Assembly (NCBI GenBank): GCA_018830865.1
Contig: JAHJRN010000069.1
Span: 1 to 63,043 of the forward strand
DNA: 63,043 bases
Direction: 5' to 3'
Source of the DNA: Patescibacteria group bacterium
GTDB taxonomy: Bacteria > Patescibacteriota > Patescibacteriia > 2-12-FULL-60-25
This document shows, piece after piece, positions 3,039 to 46,670 of this stretch; the stretch's first letter is position 1, and the number at the start of each line of letters is the position of its first letter. Position numbers and translations under genes: made by a program. The notes under the pieces are model-generated. The model made no database searches and had not been told where the DNA came from. It saw only the letters and a program-made list of their open reading frames with translations.

Positions 3039-4019
3039 TTAATGCTTTGCTGAATTATCCGGCACTCTCCAAAGCACATCTGTGAACCAATTTCTCTGAT
3101 CGGAAAACCAGGAAACGATTTCAAATCCCGACTGTTGCGCCATTTCCTCAATCATCGTTTTGGAATATTTTTGCGATTGTTCTGTAAAAATGCGTTCGCC
3201 TGCAGTCAGTCTGATGGTTTCATCGGTAAGTTTAAGCGTAACTTTTTGCTCTTCTTTGCTAATCAAATAACTGCTTGCCAGCCCATTATCAGGATTATAA
3301 ACTTCCTGATGTTCAAAAAGCTCCAGGCGAAAATCGGCATCCATTTCTTTGTTGATCCGTGTGAGCAGATTGAGGTTGAATTGCGCAGTAAGTCCGTGAG
3401 GGTCGTTATAAGCCTGCAAAATGACCTCGGGATCTTTTTGCAAATCGAGGCCAAGCAACAGTTGATCGCCGGCATTTAGCACCTTCCTTAACTCACTTAA
3501 AAAGTTACGTGTTTGTTCCATCGAAAAGTTACCCAGGTTCGACCCCAAAAAAAGCAGGACTTTAGGTTTCTGATGTTGCCAATGGCTCAGCATTTCAAAA
3601 TAATCGCCTTTAAGACCGCTCATCTTTATTTCGGGAAGGATACGTCTGATACTTTTCTCCAAATCGTTCAAAGCCGTAGCTGAAATATCAACCGGAATAT
3701 AGGTGAAATCTTTTTTAAGTTGGCACAGCTTCTCAAGTAATACTTTGGTTTTGAGTCCATCGCCGGCTCCCAGTTCAATCAGATCAAACGCCTGACCATT
3801 CATGCCGAAAGCCTGAATGATGGCATCCCCTTTCTCCTTAAAAATATCCATTTCGCAATCAGTGAGGTAATATTCGGGCATATGCATGATCTGCTGAAAC
3901 AAACGACTCCCGGCCTCATCATAAAAGTATTTTGAAGACAAATATTTGGGATCAGCACGCAACCCATCCATTACATCAATAGCAAAACTGCTTAGTTTCT
4001 TCTCCTGAATCGTATCCAT
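3039..4019 (-). CDS. egtD: L-histidine N(alpha)-methyltransferase, EgtD-like
   Basis: A 326-aa SAM-dependent methyltransferase of the EgtD (DUF2260) family. In the family this enzyme trimethylates histidine to hercynine, the first step of ergothioneine synthesis. Visible family features are KYFYDEAGSRLFQQI, MPEYYLTDCEMDIF (N-terminal histidine-binding part), the SAM motif IELGAGDGLKT and LFLGSNLGNF. I start at the ATG at 4019; the frame also allows a TTG at 4025. It lies 14 nt downstream of the triple-rhodanese gene on the same strand, so co-transcription is likely. No EgtB-like partner is in the window. Ergothioneine is a thiol antioxidant, which fits the peroxiredoxin and rhodanese upstream. 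Confidence 0.85.
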   Translation of the reverse strand: MDTIQEKKLSSFAIDVMDGLRADPKYLSSKYFYDEAGSRLFQQIMHMPEYYLTDCEMDIFKEKGDAIIQAFGMNGQAFDLIELGAGDGLKTKVLLEKLCQLKKDFTYIPVDISATALNDLEKSIRRILPEIKMSGLKGDYFEMLSHWQHQKPKVLLFLGSNLGNFSMEQTRNFLSELRKVLNAGDQLLLGLDLQKDPEVILQAYNDPHGLTAQFNLNLLTRINKEMDADFRLELFEHQEVYNPDNGLASSYLISKEEQKVTLKLTDETIRLTAGERIFTEQSQKYSKTMIEEMAQQSGFEIVSWFSDQRNWFTDVLWRVPDNSAKH

Positions 4020-4033
4020 AGGCAATAGCGTAA

Positions 4034-5332
4034 TTAAATGTGTTGTGCTTGCATCCCATCAGGAACGCCTGTTTCAAAAGGATTTTGCGGGTCGTTGCTC
4101 CATTCAAACCATCCGCCGTCGTAAACCGAAACACGCGGCCACCCCATCAGCCAGGCATTGAACCAGGCCTCGCTGCCCCGCCATCCTGTTCCACAATAAA
4201 AAGCCAGGTGTTTGTCGGGCGTAATGCCATTGTTTTCCCAGATTGCTGCTACCTCATGATAATCGCGTGTAGTATGATCTTCGTTTCGGTAGTTTTCCAT
4301 GTGGTAGGCATCGCTTCCACAGTCGGCAAATAGGACGCCGGGAATGCGTCCTTTGGCTTCAATATAGTTGTAGCCACTCACTTCACCAATATATTCGGGC
4401 CAGCTGCGCACGCAAACAAGCTCGGCATCTTTATCTGCCAGCATCTTTTTGGCTTCCGGCGTATCTACTGCAAGGCCAGCTTGAGCAGGGATTTGAGCTC
4501 CGAAATCTTTTACCGGCTTTTTGGGTACATCAGCCGTTGAAACCTCAAAACCGGCGTCCTGCCAGGATTGAAATCCTCCGTTCAAAATTCTCACATCCTT
4601 CACACCGGCATACAGCATGATAAATGCATTTCGAATAGCGCCAATGTCTCCCGCAGCACTGCCCGGAAATTCGCTGGCGTTATCCGGAAACATAAATTTG
4701 CCGTATAAAACAACCGTTGTATCGGCTGTAATTCCGTGTGCTTCAAGGGCAAGCTTAAGTTGCTGCGGACTTCGCCTATTCCAGGTTTCAGGGGCTTCCA
4801 GCGCCAAAGTGTCCATATCAATGGCACCAGGAATATGCCCGCTGAGGTAAGCCTTTCTGTTGCGATAATGGCTGTGCACAACAACATATTTATCATTGTC
4901 GTAATGCATAGGCTTTTCACCCTGAATTAAGTCATTTACCCATTCAGCTGAAACCAGCTGTTGGTAACGCTCAAGCCTGTCCATTGGAAGTGATTCGTTT
5001 TTTACCCATTCTGTGAGGAAATGCGGATAAATAAAAAGCTTTTCATAACCAGACTGTTCAAACCGCTCAGCGACATTTTCGGCAGTTGAAAGGTCATAGC
5101 CATAAAGAATCAGTGTATGATGCGGCAGGATTTGCTTGTGCCTGACGATTTCGATCCAGTCGATATAGTTTAACCATTTTGCAGGCAAACTTTTGGCACC
5201 GCCAATATGACCTGAGCGATTCTCCCCTTTCAAAGCCCAGCCATTAAAAGCATCCACCGACCTCACATCCAGTAGAATAGTGTCAGGATTTTGAATCATC
5301 TTTTGAAGCTCAGGTGTCGTAATTTCTTTCAT
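4034..5332 (-). CDS. Three-domain rhodanese-type sulfurtransferase
   Basis: A 432-aa protein with three rhodanese folds in a row (about residues 1-115, 130-260 and 285-425). Only the last has a catalytic loop, FYCGTGWRGSEAW, with Cys380; the equivalent loops of domains 1 (LYGYDLSTA) and 2 (LYGKFMFPD) lack cysteine. One active and two degenerate domains with a CGTGWR-type loop recall E. coli YnjE-type thiosulfate sulfurtransferases. The expected role is transfer of sulfane sulfur from thiosulfate or a mercapto-donor to a thiol acceptor. No signal peptide is evident, although YnjE is exported. It sits 75 nt after the peroxiredoxin gene and 14 nt before egtD, on the same strand. Confidence 0.85.
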   Translation of the reverse strand: MKEITTPELQKMIQNPDTILLDVRSVDAFNGWALKGENRSGHIGGAKSLPAKWLNYIDWIEIVRHKQILPHHTLILYGYDLSTAENVAERFEQSGYEKLFIYPHFLTEWVKNESLPMDRLERYQQLVSAEWVNDLIQGEKPMHYDNDKYVVVHSHYRNRKAYLSGHIPGAIDMDTLALEAPETWNRRSPQQLKLALEAHGITADTTVVLYGKFMFPDNASEFPGSAAGDIGAIRNAFIMLYAGVKDVRILNGGFQSWQDAGFEVSTADVPKKPVKDFGAQIPAQAGLAVDTPEAKKMLADKDAELVCVRSWPEYIGEVSGYNYIEAKGRIPGVLFADCGSDAYHMENYRNEDHTTRDYHEVAAIWENNGITPDKHLAFYCGTGWRGSEAWFNAWLMGWPRVSVYDGGWFEWSNDPQNPFETGVPDGMQAQHI

Positions 5333-5407: not shown

Positions 5408-6025
5408 TTAAAGCGCTTTCAGAATTTCAGAAACACTGGCACGCTTTTTATAATCCGGATCAAAATGCCTCCAGGCTATTTTCCCATCCGGGTTTATCAG
5501 GAAGGTAGCAGGAATGGGAAGTCGCTGGCTATCATCAGAATGGGTCTCTTTGAGCTTGGCGCCAAGCACGGTGTTGTAAACAAAAAGCGTTTTGGTATCC
5601 GGCTTAAAGGTCACATCGTATGCGTCTGCAATACGGTAATTCTCATCATAAAGCAATTGAAATTCTGCACCGGATTTTGTTGCCATTTTATCAAGGTACT
5701 CGGGCTTTTCAGGCGAAACAGCAATCAGCTGCACACCTGCTTCCTGCAACAGATAAAGGCTATCCTGAAATGATGCCAGGTGTTTGTTGCATACCGGACA
5801 CCAAAATCCCCGATAAAAAATAAGCACGACCGGACCCTGATTCAAAACTTCCACCAAATTAAACTGATTGCCATGCTGATTTGTGGCTTCAAATAAAGGG
5901 GCAGTTTGTCCGGGCACAAGTCCAACTGCTTCTTGTGCTGAGCGAAAGTCTTGTGCCCGAAGCGGCATCTCAGCCCAGGATAATAGTATGAGATTCATAA
6001 TCAAAAAAGTTTTAAAAGTTTTCAT
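5408..6025 (-). CDS. Exported peroxiredoxin-like (AhpC/TSA) protein
   Basis: A 205-aa thioredoxin-fold peroxiredoxin-like protein. Residues 1-24 form a signal peptide (MKTFKTFLIMNLILLSWAEM, cleavage near LRAQ). The redox loop FYRGFWCPVCNKHLASF carries Cys76 and Cys79, followed by VQLIAVSPEKPEYL and a late ATFLINPDGKIAWRHFD. It is expected to reduce peroxides or disulfides in the periplasm. It follows DoxX by 27 nt on the same strand, so both should be read from the ECF-type promoter at 6536-6562. Confidence 0.85.
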   Translation of the reverse strand: MKTFKTFLIMNLILLSWAEMPLRAQDFRSAQEAVGLVPGQTAPLFEATNQHGNQFNLVEVLNQGPVVLIFYRGFWCPVCNKHLASFQDSLYLLQEAGVQLIAVSPEKPEYLDKMATKSGAEFQLLYDENYRIADAYDVTFKPDTKTLFVYNTVLGAKLKETHSDDSQRLPIPATFLINPDGKIAWRHFDPDYKKRASVSEILKAL

Positions 6026-6052: not shown

Positions 6053-6505
6053 TCATCCCATTTTGGACATGAGGTATTTCTTCAGGAAGTGGTCCACACT
6101 GATTTTGCCAGGGCCATAAATGAACAAGCCAAAGAGCATCAGGAGGTAGTAAAGTGGTATTTCAAAGCCATTGTTTCCAGCTTCAAAACCATTGGCCCAA
6201 TGCACGCTTTGGATGGCCACCAGCATCACAATCATTAATGGAACTGCAATAATGCGTGTACCCAAACCCAAAAACAGCAGCACAAAACCGGCAACTTCTG
6301 TATAGGTTGCCAGGTAGGCATTCAATGTTGGGAAAGGCATACCCATGCCTTCGAACCAATCGGCAATGCCACTAATATTGCCAAGCTTCATCATGGCCGG
6401 GCCATAAAAGCCGTAGGCAAGCACCAAGCGAAATAACAAAAGTGGAACATCAACCAGCGCATTCAGTTTTTCGATCATTTGTTGATAAAGGGCAATCATT
6501 TTCAT
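6053..6505 (-). CDS. DoxX family membrane protein
   Basis: A 150-aa, four-helix DoxX protein (PLLLFRLVLAYGFYGPAMMKLGN, FPTLNAYLATYTEVAGFVLLFLGLGTRI, a third helix with IVMLVAIQSVHWANGFEAGNNG, and a fourth with LYYLLMLFGLFIYGPG). DoxX proteins are linked to thiol, sulfur and redox homeostasis. In hvf-type peptide clusters a DoxX protein (HvfD) accompanies the precursor and its modifying enzymes. Here it is 3.5 kb away from the HvfA/B/C-like genes but has the same promoter motif, so it may serve that system in trans. It is the first gene of the set DoxX, peroxiredoxin, rhodanese, egtD. Confidence 0.85.
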   Translation of the reverse strand: MKMIALYQQMIEKLNALVDVPLLLFRLVLAYGFYGPAMMKLGNISGIADWFEGMGMPFPTLNAYLATYTEVAGFVLLFLGLGTRIIAVPLMIVMLVAIQSVHWANGFEAGNNGFEIPLYYLLMLFGLFIYGPGKISVDHFLKKYLMSKMG

Positions 6506-6535
6506 TTTTTCAATTTTTATTGTTTGTGATGATTA

Positions 6536-6562
6536 GGTCGGCTATTTACTTTAAACCTGACA
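6536..6562 (-). promoter_or_regulatory. ECF-type promoter motif A, site 1 (DoxX operon)
   Basis: Read on the minus strand: TGTCAGGTTT (6562-6553), 12 nt, then CGACC (6540-6536), ending 30 nt before the DoxX start codon. The same box pair at identical spacing occurs at four other promoters here, which is why I treat it as an ECF sigma -35/-10 pair. Confidence 0.7.
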
Positions 6563-6687: not shown

Positions 6688-6714
6688 TGTCAGGTTGAGT
6701 CGCTTTATCCGACT
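6688..6714 (+). promoter_or_regulatory. ECF-type promoter motif A, site 2 (DsrE gene)
   Basis: TGTCAGGTTG (6688-6697), 12 nt, then CGACT (6710-6714), ending 29 nt before the DsrE ATG. Spacing is identical to the other motif A sites. It is divergent from site 1 across a short intergenic region. Confidence 0.7.
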
Positions 6715-6743
6715 GAGAAGTCAAATTCAAAACAAAAGCTATT

Positions 6744-7100
6744 ATGACAAAAATTGCCCTTATTATTATGTCGGATACAGAAAGCATCGAAGCGCTCGGC
6801 AAAGTATCCAACGCCTTTATGTTAGCCCTTGAATCGATGGAACAAGGCGATGATCTCAAAATAATTTTTGAAGGAGCAGGCACCAAATGGATAGGCGCAC
6901 TCGAAGACTCCTCACATAAACTTCATGGCTTGTATCAGTCTGTAAAGCCTGCAATAACTGGTGCGTGCTCGTTTTGTGCAACCGCATTTGGCGTGAAAAA
7001 CACCGTTGAAAAGGCAGGTATTACTCTGTTATCAGATTATAAAGATCATCCCAGCCTGCGTCAATTGGTTGTTGATGGGTATGCCTTGATTTCATTCTAA
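6744..7100 (+). CDS. DsrE family protein
   Basis: A 118-aa single-domain DsrE/DsrF-like protein (MTKIALIIMSDTESIEALGK, KIIFEGAGTKWI). Two cysteines, Cys75 and Cys78 in TGACSFCATAFG, sit where sulfur-trafficking DsrE-like proteins keep their reactive cysteine. The family acts in sulfur relay or persulfide handling in the cytoplasm. It is monocistronic: it has its own ECF-type motif upstream and a hairpin terminator directly downstream (7131-7155). It stands divergent from the DoxX operon. Confidence 0.85.
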   Translation: MTKIALIIMSDTESIEALGKVSNAFMLALESMEQGDDLKIIFEGAGTKWIGALEDSSHKLHGLYQSVKPAITGACSFCATAFGVKNTVEKAGITLLSDYKDHPSLRQLVVDGYALISF

Positions 7101-7719: not shown

Positions 7720-8280
7720 TTAGTATTTATACCCTCCTCCACCATCAGTTTCCAGACCAATACCTGTTGCCAGCACCAGGCGGTTGACAAAATTAAAATA
7801 AGCAACAACCAGACTGGCATCCAGCAATTCCAGGTCAGTGAAGCCACTGTTTTTTAATTGCAACAACAACTGGTTTTGCTCAAAAGCAGCAGGATTGGCT
7901 GTGAGTTTGGCAGCAAGCTCTGCCAAAAACCGTTCGCGTTGGCTAAGCGGAGCAGACTTCCAATCGCTGATTAAAAGTTTCAATCGCTCATCATTTTTCC
8001 AGTAATGATGCAGCGCTTCGGCATGATGCTGCCGGCAATAAAGGCAAGCATTCGTTACCGAAACCACCACGGCCATCATTTCCCTTTCGGCTCTCGAAAG
8101 TGGCGATTTGCTAAACATGATCTCCATATAAAGCTCCATATGTTTAACAATACTTTCGGGATGCAGGCTTTGCATTTTGTGCACTTCGGCCAGTTTGCCT
8201 CGTTTTTGGATGATATCGTCGTAAATTTCACGCAGGCGGCCGGTGGATTCTTCGTAATCAATGATTTTAATTGTGCTCAT
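7720..8280 (-). CDS. AhpD-like peroxidase-related protein (carboxymuconolactone decarboxylase family)
   Basis: A 186-aa protein of the CMD/AhpD superfamily, subgroup of uncharacterised peroxidase-related enzymes. The catalytic motif is NACLYCRQHHAEAL with Cys79, Cys82 and His86, which matches the CxxCxxxH of AhpD-type disulfide and peroxide reductases. The N-terminal half is the helical part with LSRAEREMMAVVVSVTN. It is expected to be cytoplasmic. It is divergent from the DUF427 gene across 70 nt, and motif A site 3 starts only 12 nt from its start codon. The C-terminal GGGGYKY is unusual. Confidence 0.85.
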   Translation of the reverse strand: MSTIKIIDYEESTGRLREIYDDIIQKRGKLAEVHKMQSLHPESIVKHMELYMEIMFSKSPLSRAEREMMAVVVSVTNACLYCRQHHAEALHHYWKNDERLKLLISDWKSAPLSQRERFLAELAAKLTANPAAFEQNQLLLQLKNSGFTDLELLDASLVVAYFNFVNRLVLATGIGLETDGGGGYKY

Positions 8281-8291
8281 AAGGTGATATT

Positions 8292-8318
8292 TGTCAGGAA
8301 AAAGTAAAAGTAACGACT
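8292..8318 (+). promoter_or_regulatory. ECF-type promoter motif A, site 3 (DUF427 gene)
   Basis: TGTCAGGAAA (8292-8301), 12 nt, then CGACT (8314-8318), ending 32 nt before the DUF427 ATG. It keeps TGTCAGG and CGACT at the same spacing as the other sites, although the bases after TGTCAGG differ. Confidence 0.65.
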
Positions 8319-8350
8319 TAAATTATAAATTAACATAAAAACCTATCTCT

Positions 8351-8632
8351 ATGAAAGCGATTTGGAACGATAAAATTATTGCTGAAAGCCAAAACACCGT
8401 GCCTGTTGAAGGCAACCGCTATTTCCCTGCCGAAAGTGTTAACAGTGAATACTTGCGCAAAAGCGATACCCAAACCATATGCCCCTGGAAAGGCACTGCC
8501 AGCTATTATGATGTGGTGGTTGACGGGCAGGTAAACAATGATGCCGCCTGGTACTATGCCGATCCCAAGCCTGCAGCCTCAAAAATTAAAGGGCATATTG
8601 CCTTCTGGAAAGGGGTCTCGGTTTTACCCTAA
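8351..8632 (+). CDS. DUF427 family protein
   Basis: A 93-aa protein covering the whole DUF427 fold: MKAIWNDKIIAES, VEGNRYFPAESV, TICPWKGTASYYDV and a DAAWYYADPKPAASKIKGHI end. Such proteins are small cytoplasmic beta-rich proteins without a proven function, often found in stress-related operons. A bidirectional terminator at 8720-8750 follows, so the gene is monocistronic under the motif A site. Confidence 0.9.
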   Translation: MKAIWNDKIIAESQNTVPVEGNRYFPAESVNSEYLRKSDTQTICPWKGTASYYDVVVDGQVNNDAAWYYADPKPAASKIKGHIAFWKGVSVLP

Positions 8633-8783: not shown

Positions 8784-9314
8784 CTATTTCGAAAAGACGT
8801 AATCCTTTGCTTTTGCTGCGGTATGGCACTGCAAACACATGCCATTCATCAGCTTGGCGCCACGCATGGCATTACCATTTTCGTCCTTTGCAATTTTTCC
8901 ATCAGGAGCCAGCATAAACCATTCCCAATCGCCACCTTCGGGATTAAAGTCGTTGCCACGTTTTACCATAGCAGTCCGCTCGTCCACGGTTCCTTCAGGG
9001 TTTTTGGAATGTTTTACGATGATGGTTCCCACAGGATAGATTCCGTTTACAGGAGCCTGCCCATCTTTGAAATAAACATCACGCACCACGGTTTCATCGT
9101 TTCCGCCATGCGCCATTCCTCCCAGTGCAGGATCAGCGCCTTGTGCAGTGGCATCCTTGGACCAATTCATGAACGAAGCAAATGAATTGTCATCAGCCAC
9201 AAACTCTGAAGGTGCAGGCGGGTTATCATCGTCATCATCTTTGCTACATGAGGTGATGATCACTGAGCTGGCAAAAAGCAAGCTGAATAAGAGTAAAAAT
9301 CTGTTTTTAAGCAT
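8784..9314 (-). CDS. Cytochrome P460-like lipoprotein
   Basis: A 176-aa lipoprotein. It has a signal sequence with lipobox IITSC (Cys23), an acidic linker (KDDDDDN), then a cytochrome P460-type domain with SFASFMNWSKD, DVYFKDGQAPVNGIYPVGTI and MVKRGNDFNPEGGDWEWFML. It ends with the heme-binding CLQCH (Cys160, Cys163, His164). P460 hemoproteins oxidise hydroxylamine or bind NO-type ligands; the substrate here is unknown. It is the last gene of the minus-strand HvfA/B/C-like set, 12 nt after the DUF2063 gene, so it should be made with the peptide system. Its place in the operon is unusual for this kind of cluster. Confidence 0.8.
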   Translation of the reverse strand: MLKNRFLLLFSLLFASSVIITSCSKDDDDDNPPAPSEFVADDNSFASFMNWSKDATAQGADPALGGMAHGGNDETVVRDVYFKDGQAPVNGIYPVGTIIVKHSKNPEGTVDERTAMVKRGNDFNPEGGDWEWFMLAPDGKIAKDENGNAMRGAKLMNGMCLQCHTAAKAKDYVFSK

Positions 9315-9326
9315 AATTTAAAGTAT

Positions 9327-10085
9327 TTAAGGGTTAGTAAATCCAAGAATTAATTGACTTTGAATGCATTGATTAACAAATCCGGTAGCCTGTGGCAGAT
9401 AATCCGGTTTGTAAGTAATATGCAAAGACTCACAGCTAAGTTTAACCAAAGCCGTCAGATCCATTTGTACGCCCTGCTTTAAGATTGCAATCATTTGCGC
9501 CGTTAGTGGCGAGAGATTGGTAAAGAGCACCTTGCCGCTTTCGGGATGCCGGTGCAGACTCACAAAGAAGTTAGAGCGGTCGTTGACACTGATTGTACCG
9601 GCCGGCTTCAGGTGAACCGGAAATTGAAAATGCAGGAGCTCCATCTCCGGATTAAACACCACATTTTCTTTTTCGGCCTGGCCGTCCAGTTTAACATTTA
9701 CAGCCACATCAGGCATCATATAAACAGCCACTTCTGCCCACTCAAAGCGCATCAGATCAAGCAGAAAAGGGTATTTTCTCTGAAGGTGCAAATAGTCTTT
9801 TTCAACAAATGCTATTAGCACTTCGGGCATTCTCCAAATTTGTGGTGATTGCATTGCGCCGCTGCGGTAAAAATCTTTCACCAGACCAGACCATTCCGTT
9901 TGCGACAATAGATTTTCTGTCAATGGATAAGCAGACGTAATCGCCTCTTCGGCCACATGAAATACCATTCGGCGATATTGTTCGAGTGCCTCAGGACGAG
10001 AAAGTGTGCTTTTGAAAGCTTTCTCCTGCCGGATAGCTTTGGCAAAAGATGATTGCGTTTTGAAGGTTTTAACTGTGGTTTGCAT
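9327..10085 (-). CDS. HvfC/BufC-like DUF2063 protein, partner of the DUF692 oxidase
   Basis: A 252-aa protein with the N-terminal DUF2063 (putative DNA-binding) domain at about residues 8-105: SRPEALEQYRRMVFHVAEEA, AYPLTENLL, LVKDFYRSG. A beta-rich C-terminal half follows, with EWAEVAVYM and FPVHLKPAGTISVN. In bufferin, HvfA and TglA-type systems such a partner presents the precursor peptide to the DUF692 oxidase. The start overlaps the end of the DUF692 gene by 17 nt, which indicates translational coupling and a shared complex. It is cytoplasmic, with no signal peptide. Confidence 0.8.
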   Translation of the reverse strand: MQTTVKTFKTQSSFAKAIRQEKAFKSTLSRPEALEQYRRMVFHVAEEAITSAYPLTENLLSQTEWSGLVKDFYRSGAMQSPQIWRMPEVLIAFVEKDYLHLQRKYPFLLDLMRFEWAEVAVYMMPDVAVNVKLDGQAEKENVVFNPEMELLHFQFPVHLKPAGTISVNDRSNFFVSLHRHPESGKVLFTNLSPLTAQMIAILKQGVQMDLTALVKLSCESLHITYKPDYLPQATGFVNQCIQSQLILGFTNP

Positions 10086-10902
10086 ATACCTGAGGTTTTA
10101 AGACTTGTTGCTGAATTTTTCTGAGTTGCTGTAATTCATGCTGCATCTCCGGTAGCTCGGGAATATTGAAATCACGCTCCAGGAGAACCGGAACCGGACG
10201 ACCAATTTGCTGCATAGTAAAAGAGAACAGCTCATAAACCGGATCAATAATAGCCTGTCCATGTGTATCAATAATCAGATCTTCAGATACTTGTTCGTGG
10301 CCGGCCATATGAATATAGCGGACCCGCTCGAGCGGTAATGCCGTGATAAAAGCTTCCGGATTATAATGATGGTTAAAGCCATTGACATAGATATTATTTA
10401 CATCCAGCAATAAATCACAATCGGCTTCCTCTAAAATAGCATTAACAAACTCCAGTTCGCTGAGCTCGGGCGTGATCGCGGTATAATAACTCACTATCTC
10501 GATCGCGATACGGCGCTCCAGAATTTCTTGTACTTCCCTGATTCTTGAACTTACATGTTTTACCGCTTCAGCAGTAAAAGGAATCGGGAGCAACTCATAC
10601 AAATGGGCGTTATCGCATTTGGCAAAACTCAGGTGTTCGGAATAAAGGCTAGCACCGGTTTCGTTGAGAAAGTGCTTGATCTTACGCAGAAAATCATAAT
10701 CCAATGGATCAGGACTACCTACACTGAGCGACAAGCCGTGTGTAAAAAAAGGATAGCGTTCTAAAGCTTTGTCGAGCAGCTTTTTCCAATAGCCACCAAC
10801 ATCTATCCAGTTTTCGGGTGCCACCTCAATAAAATCAGGAGTGAGCTGGTTCGAAGCCAATAATTCTTCTGCAAAATCACGTCGAAATCCGATGCCGGTC
10901 AT
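10069..10902 (-). CDS. HvfB/BufB-like DUF692 multinuclear non-heme iron oxidase (MNIO)
   Basis: A 277-aa TIM-barrel protein of family DUF692 (MbnB, TglH, ChrH and HvfB relatives). The metal-ligand motifs are present in order: GFRRDFAEELL, DFIEVAPENW, FFTHGLSLSVG, LYSEHLSF, CDLLLDVNNIYVNG, YIHMAGHE, IIDTHG and VLLERD. Known members use two or three iron ions and O2 to oxidise cysteine residues of precursor peptides, giving oxazolone/thioamide or thiooxazole groups. The likely substrate is the cysteine-rich precursor encoded just upstream (10985-11422). A hairpin between the two genes may lower enzyme expression relative to the peptide. Confidence 0.88.
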   Translation of the reverse strand: MTGIGFRRDFAEELLASNQLTPDFIEVAPENWIDVGGYWKKLLDKALERYPFFTHGLSLSVGSPDPLDYDFLRKIKHFLNETGASLYSEHLSFAKCDNAHLYELLPIPFTAEAVKHVSSRIREVQEILERRIAIEIVSYYTAITPELSELEFVNAILEEADCDLLLDVNNIYVNGFNHHYNPEAFITALPLERVRYIHMAGHEQVSEDLIIDTHGQAIIDPVYELFSFTMQQIGRPVPVLLERDFNIPELPEMQHELQQLRKIQQQVLKPQVYANHS

Positions 10903-10939
10903 AGGAATAGTTTTTAGGAATTAAAATGAAAAGAAAAGT

Positions 10940-10970
10940 GGAGGTGACCGATCGTTTCTGGTCACACTCC
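10940..10970 (-). terminator. Attenuator-like hairpin between peptide precursor and its enzymes
   Basis: Arms GGAGGTGACC and GGTCACACTCC (10940-10949, 10960-10970) pair with a small bulge. On the minus strand a T-rich stretch follows (CTTTTCTTTTCATTTT). It sits in the 82-nt gap between the precursor and the DUF692 gene, where partial termination would favour the short precursor message. Confidence 0.55.
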
Positions 10971-10984
10971 TTGGGATAAGTGGT

Positions 10985-11422
10985 TTAGAAAGTCCCGCAT
11001 TTACCTTCGCCACATTTGGCTTCAGAGCTTTTGCTTTCTGACTTTTTTTCGGCTTTTTTCTCGGTTTTCTGCTCGGTTTTTAAGTCAGCTTTCTTCTCAG
11101 ATGATTTTTCAGCTTTCTTTTCGCCTTCGCCACATCTACCTTCACCGCATTTGGCTTCCTTTGTCTTGCTTTCTTTGTTGGCTTCACCGCATTTAGCTTC
11201 CTTGGTTTTGCTTTCCTGCGTGGCTTCGCCGCATTTCAACTCGAACTTAAGATCAGGGATGGGTGTAAAAAGCTTGGTGCTTAGTGCCGATCTTACTTCG
11301 CTGCCCGAGCCCAATAAATTGGCTGTGAAAGCGTTTTCGGCTTGTACGTTAAGAGCTGCTCCGCCGCTGATCAATGCACCGGCTACTAAGGTCGTTTTGA
11401 TAAAGTTTTTTTGATTTTTCAT
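10985..11422 (-). CDS. HvfA/bufferin-like secreted cysteine-rich peptide precursor
   Basis: A 145-aa, low-complexity secreted protein. Residues 1-28 are a Sec signal peptide (cleavage after NVQA), 29-60 a spacer, and 61-145 a Lys/Glu/Ser-rich tail with six cysteines at 64, 78, 92, 97, 137 and 142. Every cysteine is followed by glycine and five by GE: KCGEAT, KCGEAN, KCGEGRCGEGE and KCGEGKCGTF. The KCGEGKCG motif is the hallmark of HvfA-type precursors, whose cysteines are oxidised by a DUF692 enzyme and which bind copper. Residues 63-76 and 77-90 are a direct 14-residue repeat (42 nt). Motif A site 4 lies upstream. Modification and metal binding are inferred from neighbours and motif. Confidence 0.82.
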   Translation of the reverse strand: MKNQKNFIKTTLVAGALISGGAALNVQAENAFTANLLGSGSEVRSALSTKLFTPIPDLKFELKCGEATQESKTKEAKCGEANKESKTKEAKCGEGRCGEGEKKAEKSSEKKADLKTEQKTEKKAEKKSESKSSEAKCGEGKCGTF

Positions 11423-11474
11423 TGTTACAGGTTTTTTAATGTTTTGAACGATTTAAGATTAAATTCATTAACCC

Positions 11475-11501
11475 AGTCGCACGATTTTAAAAAACCTGAC
11501 A
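11475..11501 (-). promoter_or_regulatory. ECF-type promoter motif A, site 4 (peptide precursor operon)
   Basis: Minus strand: TGTCAGGTTT (11501-11492), 12 nt, CGACT (11479-11475), 52 nt before the precursor ATG. It lies between the anti-sigma gene and the precursor, so the peptide operon has its own promoter besides any read-through from the sigma operon. Confidence 0.75.
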
Positions 11502-11504
11502 GCA

Positions 11505-11792
11505 TCAACTGAACTTTTCGGTGTCCAGCTTTTCTTTTAACTTATTAATGCGCTGATTATCTGATTCTTGATCAATGGATAATTTTTCTTCTTCAAGTGA
11601 CTCCAATTCCTTTTGAATCACCTTGTCGAGTAATTCACTTTGCTGTTGATAATTTCGACAGGCATCACAAACACGGGTGTGCATAAAAAGCTGTGCCTTC
11701 TCGACAGGGCTTAACGAAAACACAGTTTTCTTCTCAATCAACTCTGTTGCTTTATGGCAAGAGAGCATTAAGGTATTCATTATCTTTTTCAT
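11505..11792 (-). CDS. Zinc-finger anti-sigma factor
   Basis: A 95-aa protein starting at the ATG that overlaps the sigma stop codon (ATGA, 11792-11789). It has a ZAS-type zinc site, His38-x3-Cys42-x2-Cys45 in MHTRVCDACRNY, plus Cys12-His13 near the N-terminus. A charged helical C-terminus follows (LDKVIQKELESLEEEKLS). There is no transmembrane segment, so this is a soluble anti-sigma like ChrR/RsrA-type redox or metal sensors rather than a membrane FecR. The overlap with the sigma gene is typical of sigma/anti-sigma pairs. Release of sigma by thiol oxidation or metal displacement is a reasonable inference. Confidence 0.8.
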   Translation of the reverse strand: MKKIMNTLMLSCHKATELIEKKTVFSLSPVEKAQLFMHTRVCDACRNYQQQSELLDKVIQKELESLEEEKLSIDQESDNQRINKLKEKLDTEKFS

Positions 11793-12397
11793 GCTGCAAA
11801 CCAATTTTGTTCTATACATGCTCGCAACTGAAGTTTTGCCCTATGCAGAATCTGCCAGAAGTTAGCCTGACTGATTCCAAGGTCTTCGCAGATTGCGGGT
11901 CCTTTTTGTTCTTGTAAATATTTTAACTTCATAGCCACAGACCATTGTTCGGGCAATTGTTCCATGCAATAAAACAAAATCTGCCGAAACTGTTCGTTAT
12001 CCAGTAATTCTTCATCTCCAACCGACCAGTTGCCAGGTTTTCTATCTTCGTTCCAGCTTTGATCCTTGCTAAAGAAGAGTCCGAGCATATCAGACTGGTT
12101 GTCGCCTGCATCCACAAATTGCATCTTATATTTTTGCCGAAAATGATCCATAATTTTATGCTTTAAAATCGAAAACAGCCAGGCTTTGGGGTTAACTCCT
12201 TCAAAGCCATCCAGCGCATGCAGCGCCGCCACAAAAGTATCCTGCACCAAATCTTCGGCTAATAAATGATCGCTGGTACGCTTATGCGCCCAGGCATGCA
12301 TATGCGAGGCATACTCGCTAACCCAGCTGTTGAGCAGTTTTCGCTTATCGGTGGATTGATCCATAGGTTCAAAAGTACTATTCTTTTGCTGCTCCAT
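11789..12397 (-). CDS. ECF RNA polymerase sigma factor (peptide/redox regulon)
   Basis: A 202-aa ECF sigma factor. Region 2 covers about residues 28-95 (HLLAEDLVQDTFVAALHALD, PKAWLFSILKHKIMDHFRQ) and region 4 about 138-195 (LPEQWSVAMKLKYLQEQKG, ICEDLGISQANFWQILHRAK). An acidic, aromatic linker separates them. It starts 2 nt after a small T9SS protein gene and overlaps the anti-sigma gene by 4 nt. Motif A site 5 precedes the operon, so positive autoregulation is likely. The five motif A sites within 7 kb are its predicted targets. Confidence 0.9.
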   Translation of the reverse strand: MEQQKNSTFEPMDQSTDKRKLLNSWVSEYASHMHAWAHKRTSDHLLAEDLVQDTFVAALHALDGFEGVNPKAWLFSILKHKIMDHFRQKYKMQFVDAGDNQSDMLGLFFSKDQSWNEDRKPGNWSVGDEELLDNEQFRQILFYCMEQLPEQWSVAMKLKYLQEQKGPAICEDLGISQANFWQILHRAKLQLRACIEQNWFAA

Positions 12398-12399
12398 AA

Positions 12400-13047
12400 T
12401 TATTTAATAACCAATAATTTCCCTTTTGCCCGGATAATTTTTGCTGACGAAACTATTTCGAATACATATAAACCTGCTTCCAGAGAGCCGTCAGGAATTT
12501 GAAATTCTCTGCCATTTTGCTCATCCTCCCATATTAAGCGACCATTTAGGTTAAAAATGCGCAATCGCGCTACCTCAAAAGAAGGATTATCAAAAGCTAT
12601 CGTACCGCCATGAACAAAAGGATGTGGAATCAATTGATAGTTTTTTGCAGAAAAATCAAACACTTTCAGCGATTCAACGAGTGAAAAGCCGAGATTACCC
12701 AATTCCAGCTTGTAATAACTGGTGGTATTCAGCAAAGGCAGCGTGTCCCAAAACTCATAAGAAACCGCTGAATAGGGGCTGCCACAAATACCCGCAATCT
12801 CACCGATCTGATCGAAATTGATCCCGTCTGCCGAGCGAAAAACACGCACCCCATCACAGGTATTACCGGAAGCGATAACCCAATTCAGGTAAACTTTTCC
12901 ATTGGTTTCTGCAGCCGAAAAGGCATTCAGATAAGGTAGCTGCTGGGCATGCAAGGATGTGATTCCCTTTACTGAAACCAATGAAAATATCAGGTTAATT
13001 AAAATGATAAACCTGAAATCTAAAATACCGCTAAGCGTTTTTGTCAT
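12400..13047 (-). CDS. Small secreted protein with a T9SS sorting domain
   Basis: A 215-aa protein with a signal peptide (RFIILINLIFSLVSVKGITS, cleavage near LHAQ). A central beta-sandwich-like region (LPYLNAFSAAETNGKVYLNW, VRVFRSADGINFDQIGEI) resembles the Fn3-like units of Bacteroidota surface proteins. The C-terminus is a type A sorting domain (ARLRIFNLNGRLIWE, LEAGLYVFEI, GKLLVIK). I start at the ATG at 13047; a TTG lies six bases further up. It is the first gene of the operon with the ECF sigma and anti-sigma, 2 nt from sigma, which is unusual. It may act on the surface in the same stress response, but no function is known. Confidence 0.75.
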   Translation of the reverse strand: MTKTLSGILDFRFIILINLIFSLVSVKGITSLHAQQLPYLNAFSAAETNGKVYLNWVIASGNTCDGVRVFRSADGINFDQIGEIAGICGSPYSAVSYEFWDTLPLLNTTSYYKLELGNLGFSLVESLKVFDFSAKNYQLIPHPFVHGGTIAFDNPSFEVARLRIFNLNGRLIWEDEQNGREFQIPDGSLEAGLYVFEIVSSAKIIRAKGKLLVIK

Positions 13048-13059
13048 ATCCAAATGTAT

Positions 13060-13086
13060 AGTCGTAAACAGACATAAAACCTGACA
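13060..13086 (-). promoter_or_regulatory. ECF-type promoter motif A, site 5 (sigma operon)
   Basis: Minus strand: TGTCAGGTTT (13086-13077), 12 nt, CGACT (13064-13060). It lies 12 nt before the first gene of the sigma operon. A site here implies that the sigma factor activates its own synthesis. Confidence 0.7.
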
Positions 13087-44977: not shown

Positions 44978-45988
44978 TTATCGAAAATATACCTGGCTGT
45001 CAGTGCGTATAACTTCGAACTGAAATATCGTTTGCAAGGATTCAATTAACTGATCGGCAGTTTCACCTTCAAAACGAGCGGTCAAGCGCAAGCTTTCATG
45101 CTGTGATGCCAGCTGAATATCCAGACCATAAACCCGGTTGAGGGTTTTTACAACTTCAGGAAGCGGGGTATTGACAAATTCTAAAATACCAGTCTTCCAA
45201 CTCAAGAAGTTTTTATCTACAGCGGTGCTTCTTGACAAGCGTTTACTAGGCAAATCAAAAACACCTCTTTCGCCTGGAAGCAAAACAATTTGTTCAATAC
45301 GGTTGGCAGGAGATTCATCAAAAGTGAACAACCTTACCTTTCCTTCAATAAGATCCAGCGTGTAGGTGTCAGAACCCGGCACAGCACGCAGATTAAATTT
45401 AGTGCCCAGCACTTCAACTCCCAAATTATCGAGCAAGAGCTGGAATGGCTTTTCAGGATTACTTTGCACCTCAAAAAGAGCTTCTCCGGTAAAATTGGCT
45501 ATTTCCCTTTTCTTATCAAAAGCAGCCGCATATTGCATGGCCGATCCTGCATTCATGAATACTTCGCTGCCATCGGGAAGCACCACGGCCTCATTGGATT
45601 TTTCGTTCATCACTACGCTTTCCAGCTGCACAGGTTCGTCCTTGCGCAACAAAAACAAAACAGCCAGCCCGAGCACTAAAACTGCTGCAGCACTGGCGGT
45701 CCATTTTGTGAAACGATTTATCATTGAAATATGCTTCGGGGCGAAATACTGACCTTGCTCAATTGTGTCAATCTTTTGATGCACCTGGGCAAGTGCTTTG
45801 TCAACATCCAGACCATCAACACTTTTATGAGCACCCGAAAGCTTCCAGGCAAGTGATCGTTGCTCAAACCAAATTTTATTGGTTTCGGATACAGCAATCC
45901 ATTGCTCCATAAGAGTTTTCTCCTCTTTGGAACAATTTCCAGTCAGGTATTTCACTGACAACTTATCATATCCGTTTTTACTGATCAC
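44978..45988 (-). CDS. FecR family anti-sigma factor (DUF4974 C-terminus)
   Basis: 336 aa, GTG start. The N-terminal cytoplasmic anti-sigma part (1-95, YDKLSVKYLTGNCSKEEKTL) is followed by one transmembrane helix (about 97-114). A periplasmic FecR domain (about 130-225, EVVLP-type VVLPDGSEVFMNAGSAMQY, GEALFEVQSNPEKPF, LGTKFNLRA) and DUF4974 (about 265-336, LEFVNTPLPEVVKTLNRVYG) complete it. It transduces a surface signal to the ECF sigma encoded upstream. The 100-nt gap after sigma holds motif B site 1, so FecR and the genes after it can be induced separately from sigma. Confidence 0.95.
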   Translation of the reverse strand: MISKNGYDKLSVKYLTGNCSKEEKTLMEQWIAVSETNKIWFEQRSLAWKLSGAHKSVDGLDVDKALAQVHQKIDTIEQGQYFAPKHISMINRFTKWTASAAAVLVLGLAVLFLLRKDEPVQLESVVMNEKSNEAVVLPDGSEVFMNAGSAMQYAAAFDKKREIANFTGEALFEVQSNPEKPFQLLLDNLGVEVLGTKFNLRAVPGSDTYTLDLIEGKVRLFTFDESPANRIEQIVLLPGERGVFDLPSKRLSRSTAVDKNFLSWKTGILEFVNTPLPEVVKTLNRVYGLDIQLASQHESLRLTARFEGETADQLIESLQTIFQFEVIRTDSQVYFR

Positions 45989-46019
45989 TTTTTAAAATAA
46001 TTTAACATTGCTACTAAAT

Positions 46020-46045
46020 GACAATCTACTAAGGTGTTCCCCCTA
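46020..46045 (-). promoter_or_regulatory. ECF-type promoter motif B, site 1 (FecR operon)
   Basis: Minus strand: TAGGGGGAA (46045-46037), 11 nt, ATTGTC (46025-46020), then ATTTA. Box order and spacing match the sites before giant genes 2 and 3, with two substitutions. It ends 31 nt before the FecR start. Confidence 0.6.
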
Positions 46046-46088
46046 TCTGTCTTTATCTTTTTTTTAACAATTGTAATTTGTTCATGAT

Positions 46089-46670
46089 TCAAAAACGTCC
46101 GAAAGTTAATAAAAACAACAAAACAAGTGGCAAAAATTGTTTTAAACTTTTTCTCAGTTGCTCTAAAGCTTTTGTCATCTGATTCTCGACAGTTTTAACA
46201 GAAATATTCAATTTCTCAGCAATTTGCTTGTTTTTTAAACCATCATGACGACTCATTTCGAACACCATTCTTCTTTTTTCGGGCAAATCCAAAACCGCTC
46301 TCTTGATTTCTCTTTCCAGATCGCTTTCCTGCAACTTATCGAGCGGACTTTCGACGCCATTCAAAGTTTGAAAGCCGATATAGCTTTTGTACTTATCCTG
46401 AATTTTCTGCTGATTCAAGTAATTAAGCGCATGATTTTGAGTAGCTCGATAGAGATAAGATTTCAGTGAACTGTTAACAAGCAGATCGTCGCGTCTGATC
46501 CACAATTTAACAAACATATCCTGCACAATTTCACTTGCCATATCCTGATCCACCACATAGCGCATGCAGAAATTGACCAGTTCAGCATAATACCTCCTGA
46601 ATATCTCATCAAAATCTTTCCGACTACCGGCCTTAAGCCCTTCAATCCATTTGAGCTGATTGTCTGTCAT
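46089..46670 (-). CDS. ECF RNA polymerase sigma factor (FecR-linked)
   Basis: 193 aa, a Bacteroidota-expanded ECF family usually paired with FecR. Region 2: DFDEIFRRYYAELVNFCMRY, DMASEIVQDMFVKLWIRRD, LKSYLYRATQNHALNYLNQ. Region 4: LPEKRRMVFEMSRHDGLKNK, IAEKLNISVKTVENQMTKAL. The last 16 residues are strongly hydrophobic (FLPLVLLFLLTFGRF), a tail seen in some Bacteroidota sigma factors that may tie the protein to the membrane or the anti-sigma. Its own upstream region has a primary-sigma TACTTTTG box (46746-46739) but no motif B, so it is probably made constitutively. Confidence 0.95.
   Translation of the reverse strand: MTDNQLKWIEGLKAGSRKDFDEIFRRYYAELVNFCMRYVVDQDMASEIVQDMFVKLWIRRDDLLVNSSLKSYLYRATQNHALNYLNQQKIQDKYKSYIGFQTLNGVESPLDKLQESDLEREIKRAVLDLPEKRRMVFEMSRHDGLKNKQIAEKLNISVKTVENQMTKALEQLRKSLKQFLPLVLLFLLTFGRF

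Follow-up and report, generated by a model that had tools for sequence, protein, structure and literature searches.

A HvfA-type metallophore gene set in a predicted local regulon of an ECF sigma factor on a Bacteroidales contig

Introduction

In Haemophilus influenzae, the extracytoplasmic function (ECF) sigma factor RpoE2 and the small zinc-binding anti-sigma (ZAS) factor HrsE control homologous hvf/doxX genes under hypochlorous acid (HOCl) (PMC7907618), and HvfBC is described in the literature as turning cysteines into copper-binding 5-thiooxazoles. Here we analyzed hvf genes in a 63,043-nt stretch of DNA (contig JAHJRN010000069.1 of assembly GCA_018830865.1; hereafter the window) and found a HvfA-type (oxazolin/captophorin) metallophore gene set that likely belongs to a local stress regulon under its own ECF sigma factor. 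The hvf core is of a known kind, oxazolin/captophorin, and the window holds a further member.

Like the window, the H. influenzae hvf system (HvfABCX, oxazolin; RpoE2/HrsE) has a KCG-repeat precursor with a signal peptide, HvfB, HvfC, HvfX, an ECF sigma factor, and a soluble ZAS anti-sigma factor (PMC13419390, PMC7907618). Unlike it, the window carries the sigma/anti-sigma genes in the cluster, has a Bacteroidales host, places hvfX in a separate unit with a peroxiredoxin gene and EanAB genes, and adds cytochrome P460 and type IX secretion system (T9SS) genes. An earlier note on this DNA, made from the sequence, had pointed out a sigma factor with a zinc anti-sigma factor beside hvf genes; this pairing was already known from RpoE2/HrsE (PMC7907618), and the order is common in Bacteroidota.

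The captophorins, or Buf_EGKCG group (FonABC and others), share with the window a precursor with Lys-Cys groups and a multinuclear non-haem iron oxidative enzyme (MNIO) with a PME1 partner (PMC12668002, PMC12452194). They are mostly from Pseudomonadota, whereas in the clade studied here the KCG units are spaced more widely and 70 of 74 precursors have a LGSGxxVR motif past the signal peptide. In the landscape paper, too, most of the EGKCG group comes from Pseudomonadota, and sigma/NrsF genes are reported in Buf1 clusters. The Caulobacter bufferin Buf1 biosynthetic gene cluster with SigF/NrsF resembles the window in its MNIO, DUF2063 protein, ECF sigma factor, and link to metal stress (predicted for the window), but it has a DUF2282 precursor, a membrane NrsF anti-sigma factor, and the promoter GTAACC-N16-CGAA read by SigF (PMC3511200). 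Hence, the hvf promoter described below is of a different type.

Results

Core hvf genes of the window

We found six genes on the minus strand at 8784-12397 in the order ECF sigma factor, ZAS anti-sigma factor, HvfA-type precursor, HvfB (MNIO), HvfC (DUF2063), and cytochrome P460 lipoprotein, so family and domain models bear out the order proposed earlier. The ECF sigma factor (11789-12397) matches Sigma70_r2 with 57.5 bits and r4_2 with 29.5 bits, both above cut-off. The anti-sigma gene (11505-11819, with a probable ATG start at 11792) adjoins it, its likely start overlapping the stop of the sigma gene as ATGA, and its product contains the ZAS pattern C-x(20-32)-H-x3-C-x2-C, as expected for the soluble zinc anti-sigma factor that had been suggested.

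The HvfA-type precursor (10985-11422) scores 28.3 bits with NF050137 (cut-off 19.5), has an N-terminal signal peptide as judged by eye alone, contains the motif LGSGSEVRS, and has six cysteines, every one within [K/R]CG. The HvfB-type MNIO (DUF692) oxidase (10069-10902) reaches 393 bits with NF003818 (cut-off 360) and aligns to 3BWW along its length. Its gene overlaps by 17 bases that of the HvfC-type partner (DUF2063/NGO1945_C; 9327-10085), which matches PF09836 and PF22106 above cut-off. The earlier description as a HvfA/bufferin-like system thus stood in its HvfA-type half and fell in the other: membership in bufferin Buf1 (DUF2282) was rejected, with no DUF2282 match and a BufB model score of 266 against a cut-off of 310.

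The P460 gene (8784-9314) starts 12 bases past hvfC and is intact in the window (PF16694, 37.9 bits, cut-off 27); its haem site CxxCH reads CLQCH. An AlphaFold2 model of P460 from five sequences had a pLDDT (predicted local distance difference test) of 58 and gave no usable fold match, and a PDB sequence search with P460 returned matches limited to the haem motif of cytochromes c.

A shared ECF-type promoter and a predicted local regulon

For comparison, we used 80 loci from one scan of bacterial genomes, nearly all from Bacteroidota or Ignavibacteria, which make 81 with the window. Before the precursor gene at most loci, we found the two-part motif TGT[C/A]AGG-N15-CG[A/T]CTA (i.e. TGT[C/A]AGG-N15-CGWCTA). 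Its -35 core lies upstream of 61 of the 74 precursors vs a shuffle mean of 9, and it is rare upstream of the sigma, MNIO, and HvfC genes. With at most one mismatch, 1.44 Mb contained 116 sites vs 15 in the reversed-sequence control, and nearly all of these sites are at the sigma to anti-sigma step (52), at the precursor (about 48), or at other regulon genes.

Five sites with a perfect -35 element and no more than two -10 mismatches occur in the window, all inside 6.5 kb, compared to a mean of 0.7 and a maximum of 3 in 200 shuffles. The site before the operon of T9SS gene, sigma gene, and anti-sigma gene (13059-13086, minus strand) is TGTCAGG-N15-CGACTA with 0 mismatches; those before hvfA (11474-11501, minus strand), the DUF427 gene (8292-8319, plus strand), and the DsrE-like gene (6688-6715, plus strand) have one mismatch each, and that before hvfX, which heads the unit hvfX-peroxiredoxin-EanB-EanA (6535-6562, minus strand), has two with a perfect -35 element. 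Four of the five are 28-51 bp ahead of the start of an open reading frame, and the relative L030 retains the same promoter sites as the window.

From their positions, these five sites would form a predicted local sigma regulon that spans ~3.0 to 13.1 kb. The extent given in the earlier note, 8784-12397, does contain the six core genes and was too narrow, since it missed hvfX (6053-6505) and the rest of the regulon. Its proposal of a dedicated ECF sigma factor is supported by the shared promoter. The variable base of the motif also tracks the sigma type, Q occurring with C 14 times and K with A 37 times with one exception, which may be explainable by phylogeny alone.

Further arrangements of the motif were seen elsewhere. 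In Chitinophaga rupis (L143 and L154; G358:C6), two perfect sites lie ~100 bases apart on opposite strands, and one of them precedes a cytochrome b561-like membrane protein. The hvf cluster on a plasmid of Moraxella sp. DOX410 (L167:2165-4944), which includes a sigma gene and has an IS4-family transposase gene between the MNIO and DUF2063 genes, carries a pair of related sites, TGTAATA-N15-CGWCTAAT, ahead of the precursor gene and a divergent doxX. In PLSDB, 352 plasmid records encode an MNIO resembling the window HvfB, all with <60% identity, many of them from Escherichia, Burkholderia, and Rhizobium.

Conservation across relatives

Among the 81 loci, we found the sigma gene adjoining the cluster in 61, the anti-sigma gene in 62, the precursor in 74, and HvfC in 81; HvfX is within 7 kb in 56, and P460 is present in 6. 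The order sigma-anti-sigma-hvfABC is conserved in about 60 relatives. Hence, this order is not chance. The neighborhood survey of DUF692, DUF2063, and P460 proposed earlier therefore turned out well for the core order and poorly for P460. One locus in the set (L048, CAJCIQ010000232.1) has a title naming Beijerinckiaceae that looks wrong; a phylum search from its genome gave the same set as one from Daejeonella (Bacteroidota).

The ZAS pattern is present in 61 of the 62 anti-sigma factors, and the conserved H/E/D/N residues of HvfB are invariant in relatives, including H55, H90, E135, D167, H202, D212, H214, and E242 among the 81. In the 74 precursors, glycine follows 371 of 389 cysteines, 328 of which are in [K/R]CG. 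A motif L-G-x-G-x-x-[VLIM]-R lies just past the signal peptide in 70 of these 74 and is missing from the Moraxella plasmid precursor; it is a candidate HvfC recognition site. HvfB was above cut-off in 6 of 296 Bacteroidota genomes. Hence, the system is scattered among Bacteroidota and not general.

As an accessory found in one Bacteroidales clade, P460 is not a defining part. While hvfX is mostly behind hvfC, P460 occupies that position in the six P460 loci, all from Bacteroidales, where hvfX, when seen, is elsewhere beside a peroxiredoxin gene. In three loci (L031, L037, and L046), sigma and anti-sigma genes with a carboxymuconolactone decarboxylase (CMD) gene directly downstream are divergent from hvfABC-P460. 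In the two closest relatives of the window, P460 is broken, by an internal stop in L029 (11300-11860) and by stops in L030 (4900-5460), where the haem motif is also altered to CLQRH; hvfABC remains intact in both. The combination of P460 with a T9SS protein had been called unusual: P460 is indeed rare but non-defining, and the T9SS link is stronger than guessed, with the perfect promoter site before T9SS gene-sigma-anti-sigma.

A putative promoter copy inside the sigma gene of relatives

In relatives, this two-part motif also occurs, with its spacer unchanged, inside the sigma gene, ~75 bp before the anti-sigma start, in the codons of region 4.2, which is the sigma part that reads -35 elements. 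This internal motif was seen in sigma genes of loci L031 to L107 (e.g. L100:8596-9189 and L042:8409-9011). In 57 sigma genes, the cysteine codon is TGT 57 times (background 50%), and the next codon is AAG or CAG 57 times (background 27-50%), AAA making up 73% of the surrounding lysine codons; the adjacent GAA/GAG and AAC/AAT codons and a nearby lysine codon vary freely. The motif is present in 55 of 60 sigma genes vs 4.5 expected when synonymous codons are redrawn from local usage. For representatives with <50% identity, the count is 11 of 14, a value reached in 0 of 20,000 draws, vs 0.9 expected. The best reading of this conserved site is a putative internal promoter feeding the anti-sigma gene.

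Members of this sigma family are also present where a genome has no detected HvfB, and these genes often carry the internal site as well (e.g. L172 and L178). The genome of L037 has a second sigma/anti-sigma pair (L160; G060:C138) of the K/TGTAAGG type besides its pair of the Q/TGTCAGG type.

In the window, sigma region 4.2 reads CEDLGISQANFW and the internal promoter is absent; the window clade has lost this copy, and in its place a perfect site precedes the sigma operon. At other loci, no promoter was found upstream of sigma except at some where the internal copy is lost: across 79 sigma genes, 3 of the 12 that lack a good internal site have an upstream one, compared to none of the 67 that have a good internal site (p = 0.003). 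Two of these three cases are near relatives, and thus the counts are only suggestive of an upstream site replacing a lost internal one.

The hvfX unit and other neighbors

The gene for HvfX (DoxX family; 6053-6505, minus strand; NF050144, 128 bits, cut-off 80) is 2.3 kb from the hvf core in its own unit. Behind it on the same strand are an AhpC/TSA-type peroxiredoxin or thioredoxin-like protein (5408-6025), an EanB-type multi-rhodanese sulfurtransferase of anaerobic ergothioneine synthesis (4034-5332), and an adjoining EanA/EgtD-type histidine methyltransferase (3039-4025). The EanB-type protein matches sulfurtransferase structures 6ktv/6h98, which we take to be Chlorobium limicola EanB, along its full length (E 7e-207). 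Together, the two enzymes predict the EanAB route to ergothioneine. The C. limicola EanA/EanB pair is like that of the window in this full-length match and the adjoining EgtD-type methyltransferase; unlike it, the window pair shares a unit with hvfX that a predicted sigma promoter precedes. EanB is also found in L029 and L030, and EanA in L030.

Nearby are a CMD/AhpD-like protein (7720-8280, minus strand) and two predicted regulon members on the plus strand, a DUF427 protein (8351-8632) and a DsrE-like small protein with a weak Pfam match (6744-7100). Together with the proteins of the hvfX unit, these three give the set a sulfur/thiol theme. The first gene of the sigma operon encodes a small T9SS-sorted protein (Por_Secre_tail; 12400-13053, minus strand; start codon uncertain). 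Farther along the window, 13494-43534 encodes a series of four large proteins sorted by the T9SS (994 to 3136 aa), and an ECF sigma/FecR pair comes next (44978-46670).

Origin of the contig

The window (positions 1-63043; G000:C31) is one contig of a 1.14 Mb assembly with a completeness estimate of 97.65%. Its GC content is 43%, compared to ~59-63% (about 61%) for the larger contigs, one excepted, and its tetranucleotide profile correlates with their mean at r = -0.26. T9SS sorting domains in the assembly are on this contig only, and the window HvfB is 96% and 88% identical to those of the Bacteroidales metagenome-assembled genomes MIC098Bin9 and UBA6229. Hence, the window is a Bacteroidales contig that was mis-binned into the genome of another organism, and the earlier assignment to a Bacteroidota genome is right for the contig and wrong for the assembly. 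The organism that owns the rest is probably of a reduced-genome lineage; the genomes of the listed relatives of the assembly are all 0.7-1.6 Mb. Contigs C2 (35% GC) and C32 (33% GC) also appear foreign.

Discussion

We consider it likely that this HvfA-type gene set works within a local stress regulon under its own ECF sigma factor, given the gene identities, the zinc-site residues, the conserved order, and the shared promoter and its placement, all of which are observed in the sequence. By analogy to HrsE and RsrA, the ZAS anti-sigma factor would retain the sigma factor at rest until a thiol oxidant or thiol-binding metal perturbs its zinc site and frees the sigma. The freed sigma would then read TGTCAGG-N15-CGACTA before T9SS gene-sigma-anti-sigma, hvfA-hvfB-hvfC-P460, hvfX-peroxiredoxin-EanB-EanA, the DUF427 gene, and the DsrE-like gene. 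HvfA would be synthesized with its signal peptide, HvfBC would act in the cytoplasm, oxidizing the six [K/R]CG cysteines of HvfA to thiooxazoles, and the modified peptide, once exported, would bind copper in the periplasm, with peroxiredoxin and ergothioneine covering thiol damage; roles for P460 and the T9SS protein are likewise putative.

Several points weigh against this reading. The HvfC equivalog model scores the DUF2063 partner at 113.8 bits, below its cut-off of 142, and the anti-sigma factor is slightly below its NCBIfam cut-off (antisigmaE, 47.2 of 50 bits). Both mismatches of the hvfX site are in the -10 element, and the T9SS site, perfect as it is, lies just 5-11 bp ahead of the annotated start, so that either the start or the use of the promoter is uncertain. 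When 11 whole genomes are counted, sites allowing one mismatch or none do not outnumber the reversed pattern, the enrichment being local to hvf loci, and what ties promoter to sigma is linkage and association alone. These last two points would also fit a site for another regulator (i.e. a transcription factor) with the ECF sigma linked by chance. However, the motif is non-palindromic, keeps a constant spacer of 15 bp, resembles ECF promoters in its CGWC-type second element, precedes four window genes by 28-51 bp, and varies at the base that tracks sigma type (Q-C and K-A, though phylogeny alone may cause that), and we regard another regulator as unlikely.

It is very improbable that the locus is a redox system centered on P460 and the T9SS protein with the peptide secondary. 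P460 does lie directly behind hvfC in six Bacteroidales loci, and the T9SS gene heads the sigma operon in the window and L030, but 75 of the 81 loci lack P460, and stops interrupt it in L029 and L030, where hvfABC is intact. Protein constraint alone, without an embedded promoter, is also an improbable explanation of the conserved sigma codons in relatives: region 4.2 does conserve C-[K/Q]-E and S-N at the protein level, yet the codon choice is fixed (TGT and AAG/CAG, each in 57/57) while neighboring codons vary freely, and the motif far exceeds expectation in the whole set (55/60) and at <50% identity (11/14).

We lean toward a design in which a sigma-dependent promoter in the sigma factor's own region 4.2 codons drives the anti-sigma gene, giving negative feedback in which sigma is not raised. 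Where this copy was lost, as in the lineage of the window, a promoter placed before the whole sigma operon would bring joint auto-activation instead. The same promoter would tie anaerobic ergothioneine synthesis to the operon for the copper peptide. We regard the regulatory layout (i.e. a ZAS pair in the cluster, a shared promoter, EanAB in the set, and an internal promoter in relatives) as a variant of which we found no description in the open-access literature, where we also found nothing on point for an intragenic anti-sigma promoter.

HvfA-type metallophores have been described mostly in Pseudomonadota; these results add an arrangement that recurs in Bacteroidota and Ignavibacteria, and its defined promoter makes the regulon readable from sequence and testable. 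The link of a peptide of copper-binding type to a peroxiredoxin and the ergothioneine pathway points to thiol/metal stress as the signal. If true, feedback through a promoter that most relatives conserve within the sigma gene would be compact in design. It is also unusual for a promoter to share its bases with the codons of the DNA-reading helix.

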